Below, piece after piece: positions 13,340 to 42,202 of a stretch of 64,000 bases of DNA. Source of the DNA: Marine Group I thaumarchaeote (GTDB lineage: Archaea > Thermoproteota > Nitrososphaeria > Nitrososphaerales > Nitrosopumilaceae); the NCBI GenBank assembly GCA_013390905.1, contig JACATG010000001.1, forward strand, positions 124,001-188,000, given 5' to 3'. The notes under the pieces are model-generated. The model did not search any database. It was not told the DNA's origin and saw nothing but the letters and a program-made list of their open reading frames with translations. Position 1 is the first letter of the stretch. Every line of letters starts with the position of its first letter. A program made the translations under genes and the position numbers.

Positions 13340-13525
13340 ATGGTTCTAATAGTACCTAAAAAGCACTTTAGATCTGATATGAAGTATCTATGTAGAACCT
13401 GTAAGAAAGAATGTGATGATATTCCAACACATATGATGAAAGTGCACAAATTTTCAAAATCAATTATAGAGTCACAACTCAAATCAAACCCAAATACTTT
13501 TAAAAATGCTTTTGAAGTGTTATAA
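13340..13525 (+). CDS. Small C2H2 zinc-finger protein
   Basis: The 61-residue protein contains one finger, 'YLCRTCKKECDDIPTHMMKVHKF', with spacing C-x2-C-x9-H-x4-H. A helical tail 'SKSIIESQLKSNPNTFKNAF' follows. A start at ATG 13379 (MKYLCRTC) is an alternative. It ends 15 bases before the GGQ release-factor-like gene and is very probably co-transcribed with it. The function is not known; the pairing suggests a ribosome- or RNA-binding accessory (see findings). The opposite strand is also open here but has no recognisable protein features. Confidence 0.72.
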   Translation: MVLIVPKKHFRSDMKYLCRTCKKECDDIPTHMMKVHKFSKSIIESQLKSNPNTFKNAFEVL

Positions 13526-13540
13526 AAATAACAGAACACA

Positions 13541-14614
13541 ATGCAAGCAAAACTTGTGAAAAACAATCTCAAATCTATTGAGATCTCATCAATAGAGTGG
13601 TATTCCCTGAATCAATTCCTCTATGAGATAAAACAGATTGATTCTCCATGTGTATCTGTATACTATCCATATGGTAAGGGGAAAGAAACCATCTCGTTGT
13701 TACGAGAAACAAAGAGGAATGAGTCATTTGAAATAATTGAATCAGAAATCGAAAAAAGAATCACACACCTTAGGAAAAGTCCTTTCTCGGCAGGCAAGTT
13801 TGCAAAGACTCTATGTATTTTTGGATGGATAACGAACGGCAAAGTACACACTAAAGAAATTGGAACCTCAAAGAGACTTCCCTATATCTACATGGCAAGC
13901 AAAAGACCATACATCAAGCCATTCCGTGATATTCTCAAAACTAATCATGATGTTTTGCTAGTAACGCTTGATCAAAAATCTGCAAGAATACAGAAATTTC
14001 ATGGTAGTCAAATAATTCAAGAAGCTAAGCTTCGAATTGATCTACGAAGTAGACATAGAAAAGGTGGACAGAGTCAGGGGAGATTCCTAAGGGCAAGACA
14101 AACAAAGATTCATGTCTTCTTTAAGAAAATTGCAACTAAAGTCAGGAACATGGACTCTGATTCTGAATTAATTCTATTAGGTGGAATTGGTCCTGCAAAA
14201 ACAGAATTTTATGGTGAGCTAGATTCGGAGTTAGCAAATAAATGTCGATTTGTAAAAGACTTGTCTTTTTCTACTCCTATTCATGATATCTATAAGAAAA
14301 TAATCCATCACTTGTACCAGTATAGAAGAAAATATGTCACAGAGATTATTGAAAAATACGAAAAACTATTCAAAGAAGGACTAACTGCGAAGAGAAATGA
14401 CATTATCTACAAGGCATTGGAGATTGGAGCAGTAGATATGCTAATCGTCTCTGCAAACTATCATACCAACTCTCAATTCAAGAGTATAATGAAGATGCTA
14501 GAGATTGCTAGGAATAATTCCACTAGAATAGAGTTTGCAGTTTCTCCAAAAATAATTACAAAGCTAGATCTTCACAATTCAGTTTTAGCCATACTACGAT
14601 ACCGAATAAAATAA
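13541..14614 (+). CDS. eRF1-domain protein with GGQ motif (Vms1/aRF1-like)
   Basis: The 357-residue protein has the central eRF1 domain 2 with a GGQ loop, 'RHRKGGQSQGRFLRAR' (GGQ at 175-177). A domain-3-like part follows: 'LILLGGIGPAKTEFYGEL', then 'ALEIGAVDMLIVSANY'. GGQ is the loop that triggers peptidyl-tRNA hydrolysis. The NIKS and YxCxxxF codon-reading motifs of true aRF1 domain 1 are absent, and the protein is about 50-60 residues shorter than aRF1. It therefore looks like a stop-codon-independent paralogue, of the kind proposed for ribosome rescue (Vms1/ANKZF1 and the archaeal eRF1-like families). Activity is inferred, not shown. Confidence 0.82.
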   Translation: MQAKLVKNNLKSIEISSIEWYSLNQFLYEIKQIDSPCVSVYYPYGKGKETISLLRETKRNESFEIIESEIEKRITHLRKSPFSAGKFAKTLCIFGWITNGKVHTKEIGTSKRLPYIYMASKRPYIKPFRDILKTNHDVLLVTLDQKSARIQKFHGSQIIQEAKLRIDLRSRHRKGGQSQGRFLRARQTKIHVFFKKIATKVRNMDSDSELILLGGIGPAKTEFYGELDSELANKCRFVKDLSFSTPIHDIYKKIIHHLYQYRRKYVTEIIEKYEKLFKEGLTAKRNDIIYKALEIGAVDMLIVSANYHTNSQFKSIMKMLEIARNNSTRIEFAVSPKIITKLDLHNSVLAILRYRIK

Positions 14615-14704: not shown

Positions 14705-14819
14705 TGCCGGGGGCGGGTTTCGAACCCGCGACCTCCAGATTATGAGTATTGCCTTAGTTGGAGAACCGCTAGAGTTTACCAAATGAACTGGCACTCTAAC
14801 CAGGCTGAGCTACCCCGGC
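14705..14819 (-). tRNA. tRNA-Met (CAT), elongator type, with a 40-nt noncanonical intron
   Basis: Leftward, acceptor GCCGGGG pairs with CCCCGGC, discriminator A. The T arm is CGCGG-GTTCGAA-ACCCGC-like and the D arm GCTCAGCCTGGTTAGAG. Removing 14748-14787 joins CCAG to A-CTCATAA-TCTGG, giving a perfect stem CCAGA/TCTGG with anticodon CAT. The intron therefore sits between positions 30 and 31, inside the anticodon stem, not at the usual 37/38. Mature length is 75 nt. The sequence resembles archaeal elongator tRNA-Met rather than initiator. Confidence 0.9.
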
Positions 14820-19996: not shown

Positions 19997-20091
19997 GATC
20001 TATTTGATAAGAAATGATTAGTGATTTATTGTTTGATCATTAGTATTGACCCATGACATTATTAAGCTAGGAAATAATCTTGAATTTAAAA

Positions 20092-20868
20092 ATGAAAAAG
20101 ATCGAAATCAACAAAATTTACAATTTGAATTGTATTGAAGGAATGAATTTAATTCCTAAAAATAAAATTGATCTTGTTATTACTGATCCTCCTTTTGCCA
20201 TTAACTTTAAAGCAAAAAAAGCAAATTACAACAGAACTTCATCTAGGGTTCTATCTGGATACACTGAAATCAAACCAGAGGATTACTATGATTTTTCATT
20301 TACGTGGATGAGTGAAGTTTTTCGAATTCTAAAAGATTCAGGGAGTATGTATGTTTTTTCAGGATGGAATAACCTCAAAGATATTTTGCGAGCATTGGAC
20401 GATGTTGGATTTGTTACTATTAACCATGTAATTTGGAAATATCAATTTGGCGTAGTAACTAAAAAGAAATTTGTTACTTCTCATTATCATTGTCTTTATG
20501 TCTGTAAAAATGACAAAAAGCGAAAATTCTTCCCATTTTCTAGGTTTAAAAAAGATGATAAAACAAAAGATGGAAGAAGTCTTCATTACAAAGACAAAGA
20601 GGATGTATGGGATATCAAAAGAGAATACTGGACTGGCTATGAAAAAACCCCAACTAAACTTCCTTCCGAATTAATTAAAAAATTATTGGAATATTCTAGT
20701 GAAAAGAAAGACATTGTATTTGATCCTTTTCTTGGGTCAGGACAGGTAGCAGTTGTAAGCAAATCTCTTAACAGAAGATTTCTTGGTTTTGAAATAGTTC
20801 CTGACTATTACAAATTTGCCAAAAAACGACTTGATAAAAATATGTACAGAATAAAGAAATCACAATAA
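20092..20868 (+). CDS. Solitary site-specific DNA methyltransferase (beta class)
   Basis: The 258-residue protein has motif IV 'DLVITDPPFAINF' near residue 25-40 and, later, motif I 'DPFLGSGQVAVV' near 215. That order is typical of beta-class amino-methyltransferases producing N6-methyladenine or N4-methylcytosine. The middle part (about 120-180), probably the target recognition region, is rich in Lys. No endonuclease gene lies nearby, so it looks like an orphan methylase. ATG 20092 was preferred over TTG 20080. Target sequence unknown. Confidence 0.9.
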   Translation: MKKIEINKIYNLNCIEGMNLIPKNKIDLVITDPPFAINFKAKKANYNRTSSRVLSGYTEIKPEDYYDFSFTWMSEVFRILKDSGSMYVFSGWNNLKDILRALDDVGFVTINHVIWKYQFGVVTKKKFVTSHYHCLYVCKNDKKRKFFPFSRFKKDDKTKDGRSLHYKDKEDVWDIKREYWTGYEKTPTKLPSELIKKLLEYSSEKKDIVFDPFLGSGQVAVVSKSLNRRFLGFEIVPDYYKFAKKRLDKNMYRIKKSQ

Positions 20869-39280: not shown

Positions 39281-39967
39281 ATGGTTGATGTTACAGTAGT
39301 TAGATATTCCTTTGAGGGAGAAAAATTTGAGATTTTGGTTAAGCCTGACCCAGCATTGGATTACAAGCTAGGCAAGAAAAAGGATGTTTCTGCAGTTTTG
39401 GTTTCAGAGGAAATTTACACTGATTCGGGAAAAGGCACAAAGCCTGGAAATGAAAAATTACTCAAGGCTTTCAAAACTGAAGACAAGACTGAAATTGCTC
39501 AGATAATTCTTCAGAAAGGTGATCTGAATCTTACAACTGACCAAAGACGAAAAATGATTGATGAAAAGAAAAAACAGATTGTTGAGTTTGTCGCCAAGAC
39601 ATACGTAGATCCTAAAACTCACTTACCTCATCCTCCAATAAGAGTTGAGCAAGCAATGAAAGATGCCAGAGTTTCAGTTGATCCTCAAAAAAGCGTAGAC
39701 GAACAAGTACAAGACATTGTTGAAAAATTGCGTTCAATTATTGCTCTTAAATCTGAGAATCTGCAATTGGAAATTATTATTCCTGCACAATATGCATCTC
39801 AATCATATGCTGTTCTCAAATCTGTAGGTTCTCTAAAAAATGAAGAATGGCAAAATAACGGTTCTTTGAAAGCAATACTAGAAATACCTGCTGCAGCAAG
39901 GCCAAACGTGATTGATAAATTGGGTTCTATAACCAAAGGTTCTGCTTCAGTTGAGGTAATTAAGTAA
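39281..39967 (+). CDS. Ribosome maturation protein SBDS
   Basis: The 228-residue protein has the three SBDS domains: the N-terminal FYSH domain ('YSFEGEKFEILVKPDPALDYKLGKKKDVSAVLVSEEIYTDSGKG'), the central helical domain ('TDQRRKMIDEKKKQIVEFVAKTYVDPKTHLPHPPIRVEQAM'), and a C-terminal ferredoxin-like domain. With an EF-2-type GTPase it releases eIF6 from new large subunits. It leads the exosome operon; its TAA overlaps the rrp4 ATG by one base. Confidence 0.96.
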   Translation: MVDVTVVRYSFEGEKFEILVKPDPALDYKLGKKKDVSAVLVSEEIYTDSGKGTKPGNEKLLKAFKTEDKTEIAQIILQKGDLNLTTDQRRKMIDEKKKQIVEFVAKTYVDPKTHLPHPPIRVEQAMKDARVSVDPQKSVDEQVQDIVEKLRSIIALKSENLQLEIIIPAQYASQSYAVLKSVGSLKNEEWQNNGSLKAILEIPAAARPNVIDKLGSITKGSASVEVIK

Positions 39968-40647
39968 TGGAAAATAAAAGAAAATATGTTATTCCAGGTG
40001 ATCTGGTAACTACAGGACCTTTTAGACCTGAACAAAATGTTATACTTGAAGGAAATAAGATAATTTCTACATCTATAGGAATTTCTGAAATTTATGATGA
40101 CTCTGTTAGAGTAATTCCCTTAACTGGAAAATATATTCCAAAAATTGATGACTTAGTCATTGGCAAAGTCCTTTCTCATACGTCACTGTCATGGGAATTA
40201 GATATCAATTCTTGTTATGTTGGATTCTTACCAGCACAGGATGTCTTTGGACGAGACTTTTCTGCTCATGCTGATGAACTTTCTTCAAAACTAAAAACAG
40301 GAGATCTTGTTGCTGCAAGAATTGCTAATTTTGATAGAACAAGAGATCCACTGATAACAATTTCTGATAGAGATTTAGGTAAAATCGACTCTGGAACCTT
40401 GGTAAAAATCTCTCCAAGTAAGGTTCCACGCCTAATTGGAAAGAGAGGTAGCATGATTCAGATGATAGAACAGGCAACTAATGCTGCAGTAACAATTGGT
40501 CAAAATGGATGGGTGGTGGTTTCATGCGAATCCCACGAGGGATTATTAAAGGCTAAAAAAGCCATTCAAATGGTTAATGAGAAAGCACACGTTGCAAATT
40601 TGACTGATCAAGTGAAAAAAATGTTAGAATCAAAGAGTGAATCATAA
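39967..40647 (+). CDS. rrp4: Exosome RNA-binding protein Rrp4
   Basis: The 226-residue protein has the N-terminal Rrp4 domain ('VIPGDLVTTGPFRPEQNVILEGNKIISTSIGI'), an S1 domain ('DDLVIGKVLSHTSLSWELDINSCYVGFLP') and a KH domain with GxxG-type loop ('PRLIGKRGSMIQMIEQATNA'). It forms the RNA-entry cap on the Rrp41-Rrp42 ring. It overlaps both neighbours by one base (TAATG at each side). Confidence 0.96.
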   Translation: MENKRKYVIPGDLVTTGPFRPEQNVILEGNKIISTSIGISEIYDDSVRVIPLTGKYIPKIDDLVIGKVLSHTSLSWELDINSCYVGFLPAQDVFGRDFSAHADELSSKLKTGDLVAARIANFDRTRDPLITISDRDLGKIDSGTLVKISPSKVPRLIGKRGSMIQMIEQATNAAVTIGQNGWVVVSCESHEGLLKAKKAIQMVNEKAHVANLTDQVKKMLESKSES

Positions 40648-41381
40648 TGGGTGGAAGAGAAGCAACAATGGTCCTGTTGGACGAAAATGGAATTCGTTGT
40701 GACGGAAGAAAAGTCGACGAAACAAGAAAAATTACGATTAAAGCTGGTGTATTAAAAAACGCGGATGGATCTGCTTACATTGAATTTGGTGATAATAAAA
40801 TACTAGTTGGAATATTTGGTCCAAGAGATGTTCATCCAAAACACATGTCTGATACAGATACGGGAATTTTACGAGTTAGATATCATATGGAACCATTTTC
40901 TGTTACTGAAAGAAAAAATCCCGCTCCTTCAAGAAGAGAAATTGAAATTTCCAAAGTAATCAAAGAGGCATTAGAGCCTGCAGTTATGTTAGAAAAATTT
41001 CCAAGAACAGCAGTTGATGTATTTATCGAAATCTTGCAAGCAGATGGTGGTACTAGATGCGCTGCACTCTCTGCAGCTTCTGTTGCACTAGCAGATGCTG
41101 GAATCCCAATGAGAGATCTGGTTGCAGCATGTGCTTCAGGTAAAGTAGCAGATACTATAGTTCTTGATGTTAACAATGAAGAGGACCAAGCAGGTCAAGC
41201 AGATATGCCAATTGGTTACATGCCAAATCTTAAAAAAATTACGTTATTACAATTAGATGGTATCCTAACTCCTGAGGAATATAAAAAATGCGTAGAAGTT
41301 GGGGTCAATGGCTGTAAAATTGTTTATGAATTACAAAAGAAAGCACTCACTGACAAATACTTTGGAAATGGAAGCGATTAG
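40647..41381 (+). CDS. rrp41: Exosome catalytic subunit Rrp41
   Basis: The 244-residue RNase PH-fold protein has 'IRCDGRKVDETRKITIKAGVL', phosphate/RNA-binding 'MEPFSVTERKNPAPSRREIEISKVI', and the catalytic 'VNNEEDQAGQADMPIGYMPN' segment containing the active-site Asp. Rrp41 is the phosphorolytic subunit of the archaeal exosome. The start is ATG 40647 overlapping the rrp4 stop. Confidence 0.96.
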   Translation: MGGREATMVLLDENGIRCDGRKVDETRKITIKAGVLKNADGSAYIEFGDNKILVGIFGPRDVHPKHMSDTDTGILRVRYHMEPFSVTERKNPAPSRREIEISKVIKEALEPAVMLEKFPRTAVDVFIEILQADGGTRCAALSAASVALADAGIPMRDLVAACASGKVADTIVLDVNNEEDQAGQADMPIGYMPNLKKITLLQLDGILTPEEYKKCVEVGVNGCKIVYELQKKALTDKYFGNGSD

Positions 41382-41383
41382 AA

Positions 41384-42202
41384 ATGGCATCACATTCTGT
41401 TATTGATGAATTAAAAAAAACACAAATCCTTGAATTACTGGAACAAGGAAAAAGAGTAGACGGACGAGCACTAGATGAACCACGAGAAATATCAATTGAA
41501 ACTAATGCAATTCCTAAAGCAAACGGTTCAGCAAAAGTGCGACTTGGTGATACCGAAGTTTTATGTGGAGTAAAAATTCAACCAGACAGACCTTTCCCAG
41601 ATATGGGTGACAAAGGAATTTTTATATGTACTGCTGAACTATTGCCACTTTCACATCCTACTGTTGAAACTGGACCACCACAACCTCATGTAATTGAATT
41701 GGCACGAGTTACTGATAGGGGAATTAGAGAAAGTCATATGATTGATCTGTCACAATTAGTTATTGAAAAAGACAAATCAGTTGTTGGTGTATTTGCTGAT
41801 ATTGTAGTTATCGATTATGATGGAAATCTCTTTGATGCATGCTCTTATGCTGCTACTGCTGCATTGCTTACATCTACAACCCCAAAATGGACCATGGTTG
41901 ATGATAAACCAACACTTGTTGACGGCGAAGAATCTCCATTACCAACCACAACAATTCCTGCATCTGTAACTATGGGCAAGATTGGAAATCACATTATTGT
42001 TGATCCAAATGGAGATGAGTGGGATAGCATGGATGCTAGAATTACAATTACTACTAATTCTGATGGAAACATTTGTGCTTTGCAAAAAGGTGGAAGTGAT
42101 GGATTTACACAAGAAGAAATTGTACAGTGTGGAGAAATTTCTGTCAGAGTAGGCGCAAAAATTAGAGAGAAATTAAAAGAAGCTCAACAGGGAAGTCAAT
42201 AA
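41384..42202 (+). CDS. rrp42: Exosome subunit Rrp42
   Basis: The 272-residue RNase PH-fold protein has 'QGKRVDGRALDEPREISIETNAIPKANGSAKVRLGDTEVLCGVK', and a C-terminal domain with 'DACSYAATAALLTSTTPKW' and 'GKIGNHIIVDPNGDEWDSMDARITI'. It lacks the phosphate-site Arg pair and catalytic Asp pattern seen in Rrp41, as expected for the structural partner that completes the hexameric ring. It starts two bases after rrp41. Confidence 0.96.
   Translation: MASHSVIDELKKTQILELLEQGKRVDGRALDEPREISIETNAIPKANGSAKVRLGDTEVLCGVKIQPDRPFPDMGDKGIFICTAELLPLSHPTVETGPPQPHVIELARVTDRGIRESHMIDLSQLVIEKDKSVVGVFADIVVIDYDGNLFDACSYAATAALLTSTTPKWTMVDDKPTLVDGEESPLPTTTIPASVTMGKIGNHIIVDPNGDEWDSMDARITITTNSDGNICALQKGGSDGFTQEEIVQCGEISVRVGAKIREKLKEAQQGSQ

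Follow-up and report, generated by a model that had tools for sequence, protein, structure and literature searches.

In the prevailing view, the rescue of stalled archaeal ribosomes falls mainly to aPelota and ABCE1. These split the ribosome without cleaving the peptidyl-tRNA, and the nascent chain has then still to be released; a dedicated release GTPase is not known in these organisms. Among the non-canonical members of the aeRF1 superfamily, aeRF-1 paralogues with a conserved glutamine have been proposed as rescue hydrolases (Burroughs & Aravind 2019, PMC6514570). In the same study, the VLRF-1 proteins were described as lacking a Pelota domain, and the Rei1-type finger of Vms1 as having been added later, in eukaryotes, to a core that derives from bacteria (bVLRF-1). 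No literature on Nitrosopumilus aRF1 paralogues was found.

The window (the whole 64,000-nucleotide stretch of DNA that was analysed) comes from a Nitrosopumilaceae genome of 1.23 Mb that is 98.5% complete. An open reading frame at 13340-13525 (+) encodes 61 amino acids with the motif CRTC-x9-HMMKVH, of the form CxxC-x9-HxxxxH, and is followed by a second at 13541-14614 (+), which encodes 357 amino acids with GGQ at residues 175-177. The two frames share strand and reading frame and are separated by 15 nucleotides, with one TAA between them, in agreement with the initial annotation of adjacent same-strand genes 15 bases apart. The finger that it described was likewise present, C2H2 being a motif match and the zinc ligands putative. 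Homologues of the finger protein start at M14, which points to ATG 13379 as the likely start of a stand-alone 48-amino-acid form (13379-13525 (+)), and many homologues of the GGQ protein start at the position of V7, corresponding to a possible GTG start at 13559. Judging by these homologues, translation of both genes may begin further downstream than the open reading frames do, and the intergenic gap may be 33 nucleotides.

The GGQ gene is transcribed towards a tRNA gene at 14705-14819 (-) with an insert of approximately 44 nucleotides near the anticodon, which was identified with Rfam RF00005 (49.9 bits) and missed by ARAGORN in its bacterial, no-intron setting. Elsewhere in the window, a reading of the translations identified SBDS-like, Rrp4-, Rrp41- and Rrp42-like frames in a row at 39281-42202 (+), the usual archaeal exosome operon. 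A solitary DNA methyltransferase-like frame with DPPFAINF and DPFLGSGQ motifs was present at 20080-20868 (+).

The source genome also encodes a canonical aRF1 (G000:C2) of 434 amino acids, which carries NIKS and YRCDDHF and scored 423 bits against TIGR03676. The Pelota model TIGR00111 matched aPelota (C12) as the only protein over its cutoff and the aRF1 below it, with no match to the GGQ protein in the genome search. A homologue of the NFACT/RqcH type (NEMF-type) was present at C16. As a canonical aRF1 with both codon-reading motifs is present, the GGQ gene encodes a true extra factor, and its initial designation as a release-factor paralogue was confirmed.

The 357-amino-acid protein was assigned to the aeRF1 superfamily from its Pfam eRF1_2 and eRF1_3 matches, its alignment with the aRF1 of the same genome, an AlphaFold2 model and Foldseek analysis. 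It is predicted to comprise a shortened codon-reading N domain, a GGQ middle domain and a Pelota-type C domain without the zinc ribbon. The eRF1_2 match (E = 4.9e-12, 46.7 bits) is, as a sequence match, far beyond chance. It was accompanied by matches to acVLRF1, to baeRF family 10 (PF18854, 40.5 bits against a cutoff of 27.1), a model that also matches control genomes of other archaea, and, weakly, to eRF1_3, which was matched in 35/35 aligned members (best E 3.3e-5). The aRF1 model TIGR03676 matched at E = 5e-22 with 78.3 bits, under its cutoff of 234.7. Only eRF1-type domains were identified in the whole-protein Pfam scan, which detected neither a fused finger nor ankyrin repeats, VTC or VIM, and the sequence carries no coiled-coil extension of the aVLRF-1 type.

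In the alignment with the aRF1 of the same genome, 11 aRF1 residues (GTADNIKSDLT) have no counterpart in the GGQ protein, so that the NIKS loop is gone. Residues 55-62 (RETKRNES; 13703-13726 (+)) form a short turn in its place, with model helices at 47-56 and 61-79. The YRCDDHF of aRF1 reads YMASKRP and the C-domain zinc ribbon is missing; the GGQ loop and the basic helix after it are kept. The alignment thus bears out what had been noted at first sight, namely GGQ at residues 175-177 with neither NIKS nor YxCxxxF. The GGQ motif (G175, G176 and Q177; 14063-14071 (+)), which lies inside RHRKGGQSQGRFLRARQTKIHVFFKK, is invariant in 35 aligned members reaching down to 64% identity, as are R171, H172, K174, S178, Q179, R181 and F182. 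GGQ was also present in further loci and in relatives at 43-54% identity. Among deeper relatives, L147 and L148 read GGQSA, and L146 (2291-3316) and L149 (203-1267) read GGWSQ, with tryptophan for the canonical catalytic glutamine and the glutamine two positions on kept. The gene is under purifying selection (dN 0.056, dS 0.54, window versus L004).

The AlphaFold2 model, built from the family alignment, had a mean pLDDT of 77.7 and included a C-terminal alpha/beta domain. Foldseek analysis placed the archaeal aRF1 4af1 best (E 1.4e-16), Pelota matched at an E of about 1e-10, and the highest global TM-scores (0.49-0.55) were obtained with Balon structures. Flexibility in the domain arrangement keeps the global TM values modest, and the E-value ranking is thus the more reliable guide. 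A structural comparison with Vms1 had been suggested for the predicted complex of the two proteins; the model of the GGQ protein did not favour Vms1, which ranked 49th (E 5.8e-3, TM 0.25, 5% identity), with aRF1, Balon and Pelota far ahead. Against the sequences of the PDB, the family profile matched aRF1/eRF1 together with a single Pelota and a single Balon; Vms1 chains were absent from the matches at E<=10.

Of the 200 Nitrosopumilaceae genomes sampled, 49 carried the GGQ gene, and several closed genomes had no copy. Members were also detected, at 230-260 bits, in a small number of other families belonging to the same order; outside that order, only canonical aRF1s and no GGQ paralogue were seen in the phylum sample. 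The paralogue is split, truncated or frame-broken at three loci (L153, L156 and L157), these sequences indicating repeated decay. Given the patchy distribution and the broken or split copies, the gene is accessory and dispensable. The tree united all 14 tested members of the family (100/100), and a long stem separated them from the 19 canonical aRF1s. A single aVLRF-1 (L166, 817-1959 (-), genome G371) was found among 398 phylum genomes; it is textbook-like, with an N-terminal coiled coil, KKGGSSQARF and no Pelota domain, and the plasmid search identified no further aVLRF-1. Plasmid-borne second prf1 (aRF-1) genes, a further set of aRF1 paralogues, were present in at least 13 haloarchaeal plasmid records, and a second prf1 on the Haloferax mediterranei plasmid pHME132 (L165, 2752-3828) lies near a MazF-family toxin gene.

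The finger protein belongs to a family of 48-50 amino acids that was detected in 38 of the 200 Nitrosopumilaceae genomes, in up to five copies per genome, with several relatives carrying 3-5. The source genome has a second copy at C13:23077-23235 (L155, 2096-2248 (+)), and elsewhere the finger adjoins varied unrelated genes. On these sequences, it is a spreading small-protein family, independent of the GGQ gene. Besides C5, C8, H18 and H23 of the 48-amino-acid form, a third cysteine (C12) is invariant. The AlphaFold2 model (pLDDT 91.4) shows strands and two helices. No finger family, C2H2 or Rei1-type model of Pfam was matched, the search against the PDB identified nothing significant, and the structure search with the model gave no significant match among solved structures. 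A weak structural match was noted to AFV1p06 (2lvh; prob 0.33, E 1.7), for which a 2013 study found no thaumarchaeal homologue (PMC3541406). Like AFV1p06 and the Haloferax zinc-finger micro-proteins, the window finger is a stand-alone protein of ~50 amino acids with one finger; however, its ligand spacing differs from that of AFV1p06, and the match at E 1.7 is not significant. The low dS of the finger gene was also considered as a sign of a hidden RNA or a recent transfer, and both were rejected, as the whole region is ~95% identical among the three genomes that carry the pair.

The two genes had been interpreted as a split Vms1/ANKZF1, in which the finger and the GGQ protein would form one complex, the finger docking on the large subunit and positioning the hydrolase. 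A total of 60 GGQ loci were examined, 55 with at least 500 nucleotides of upstream sequence, and the finger lay directly upstream of the GGQ gene in two of them (L003 and L004) and in the window only. Strand and frame are shared in all three; these loci are ~95% identical in DNA across the region and represent one lineage. At L006 and L010, the finger lies on the same strand 2.5 kb and 3.4 kb upstream, respectively, and unrelated genes fill the interval. Across the 200 genomes, the GGQ gene was present in 49, the finger in 38, both in 16 and the adjacent pair in 2; 33/49 GGQ genomes had no detectable finger, and 22 finger genomes had no GGQ gene. The finger occurred in 16/49 GGQ genomes versus 22/151 others, with ~9 expected (Fisher p = 0.011, and 0.03 within genus, both uncorrected for kinship). 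A loose association would be compatible with this weak co-occurrence; a conserved two-gene system would not.

The adjacency, the same-strand fingers further upstream at L006 and L010 and the co-occurrence are all in keeping with a complex of this kind. Set against them are adjacency in only 2/49 GGQ genomes, most of which have no finger nearby (an outcome that the initial annotation had named beforehand as refuting), the multi-copy finger scattered beside unrelated genes, the lack of sequence similarity between the finger and Rei1-type or other C2H2 models, the retained Pelota domain and the poor structural match to Vms1. We consider a split Vms1 highly improbable. If the finger of Vms1 is a late eukaryotic addition, as described in PMC6514570, an archaeal neighbour pair cannot be the ancestral split form, which is in line with the gene context. 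The finger was rejected as a partner of the GGQ protein on gene context, adjacency being confined to three near-identical loci, and the best explanation is a chance neighbour in one lineage, not a required partner. The proposed rescue system therefore survives in part: a release or rescue-type activity of the GGQ protein is plausible from its sequence, and the partnership with the finger is unsupported by gene context.

We interpret the product of 13541-14614 as a ribosome-rescue factor that would hydrolyse peptidyl-tRNA from the A site without reading a codon, an interpretation to which we assign a probability of approximately 0.5 from the sequence and the model. The tRNA-shaped factor would enter the A site of a ribosome that holds no readable stop codon, as in stalled or damaged translation. 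GGQ-dependent hydrolysis of the peptidyl-tRNA would then free the peptide, and delivery would be by aEF1A, probably as for aRF1 and aPelota. Counted in favour were the three-domain aRF1-like architecture with the NIKS loop excised and YxCxxxF and the zinc ribbon lost, the GGQ loop and basic helix strictly conserved in Nitrosopumilaceae, the invariant GGQ with its flanking R/K/H, purifying selection, and the structural matches to aRF1 and Balon. The coexistence with a separate canonical aRF1, aPelota and the NFACT homologue, and the confinement of the finger adjacency to three loci, were counted likewise. Counted against it were the GGWSQ of L146 and L149, which shows that parts of the wider family do without the canonical glutamine, the patchy and in places broken gene, and the detectable whole-protein matches to models of ribosome hibernation factors (Rv2629 and AOC03_06830). 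Furthermore, aPelota is expected in all genomes for rescue already.

Hydrolysis could also take place later, in a Vms1/VLRF1-like role after splitting by aPelota and ABCE1, where the protein would free nascent chains from the obstructed 50S subunit together with the NFACT (RqcH/NEMF-type) homologue that the genome encodes; the finger would not be needed. The GGQSQ of the family satisfies the GGxSQ pattern of aVLRF-1 and acVLRF-1 (PMC6514570) as well as GGQ, the GGWSQ of L146 and L149 fits GGxSQ alone, and acVLRF1 is the best Pfam M-domain match for the deeper relatives L146 and L150. However, several crenarchaeal-type canonical aRF1s carry GGQSQ too; the motif therefore does not prove kinship with VLRF-1, and its value as a unique signature bridging aRF1 and VLRF-1 is weakened. 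The PF18859 (acVLRF1) match was rejected as proof of membership, since canonical aRF1s score higher, up to 57 bits. In the free tree, the family and the aVLRF-1 L166 do not come together; a forced grouping with this one long-branched sequence was not rejected (AU p = 0.22). With the Pelota domain kept, the aVLRF-1 coiled coil absent and Vms1 so distant in the structure and profile searches, we regard such a role as unlikely; the GGQ gene by itself may still have a distant affinity to VLRF-1. We are equally doubtful of a Balon-like hibernation factor, which would occupy idle ribosomes at their A site when ammonia oxidisers starve. The leading TM-scores and the two hibernation-factor models point in this direction, and Nitrosopumilaceae have been reported to have no identifiable hibernation factors (2026 survey, PMC13324472). 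However, Balon is defined by the absence of NIKS and GGQ (PMC10901736; criterion in PMC13324472), an active GGQ would destroy the peptidyl-tRNA, and a gene carried by a quarter of the family's genomes leaves the reported gap unfilled. Hibernation would suit the GGW-bearing L146 and L149 better than the window's own subfamily. A backup or conditional release factor that reads stop codons through different residues would account for the aRF1-like architecture and the GGQ, and some crenarchaeal-type canonical aRF1s also have no literal NIKS. Here, the entire NIKS-bearing loop is missing, not the letters alone, YxCxxxF is lost, and the genome has a complete canonical aRF1, which makes ordinary termination very improbable.

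A GGQ protein that has lost its codon reader, in genomes that also encode a canonical aRF1, aPelota and an NFACT homologue, can be tested directly as a candidate for nascent-chain release, and the family bears on the descent of the VLRF-1, baeRF and Balon proteins from aRF1. More speculatively, and with low confidence, the family may be an undescribed archaeal group of codon-blind release factors between the classical aRF1 (GGQ) and the VLRF-1/baeRF branches, with GGQSQ in its members and GGQSA or GGWSQ in relatives. It would serve as a rescue hydrolase beside aPelota in ammonia-oxidising archaea and illustrate a possible route from aRF1 to VLRF-1-type factors. The superfamily itself is known; the three-domain archaeal variant, with GGQ kept and the NIKS loop and zinc ribbon lost, is set apart from aVLRF-1, baeRF-1, Balon and aPelota by their descriptions, and may already be included in the family list of the 2019 survey.

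Of the known systems, classical archaeal aRF1 (TIGR03676; 4af1, 3agk) is the best match in both sequence and structure, and shares with the GGQ protein the three-domain order, the GGQ loop with its basic helix and the Pelota-type C domain. The GGQ protein differs in having no NIKS loop, YxCxxxF or C-domain zinc ribbon, in scoring far under the aRF1 cutoff and in forming a separate monophyletic, long-branched clade. Balon, Rv2629 and Msmeg1130 have the same three-domain aeRF1 fold without NIKS; Balon has no GGQ (PMC10901736), whereas GGQ is invariant in the window subfamily. The absence of codon-reading motifs and a sequence compatible with GGxSQ (GGQSQ, GGWSQ) are shared with aVLRF-1 (L166, by architecture and motif) and acVLRF-1, but in aVLRF-1 a coiled coil precedes the core and the Pelota domain is absent (PMC6514570; L166 conforms), the reverse of the GGQ protein. 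Vms1/ANKZF1 (eVLRF-1) belongs to the same superfamily and is likewise proposed to hydrolyse peptidyl-tRNA outside ordinary termination, but carries the fused finger, ankyrin repeats, VTC and VIM that the GGQ protein lacks. The baeRF-1 family 10, the second-best Pfam match, shares a conserved catalytic glutamine and is predicted to be active; it is described as bacterial, whereas the window family is archaeal. Finally, aPelota/Dom34 has no GGQ, and the protein encoded in the window carries it.
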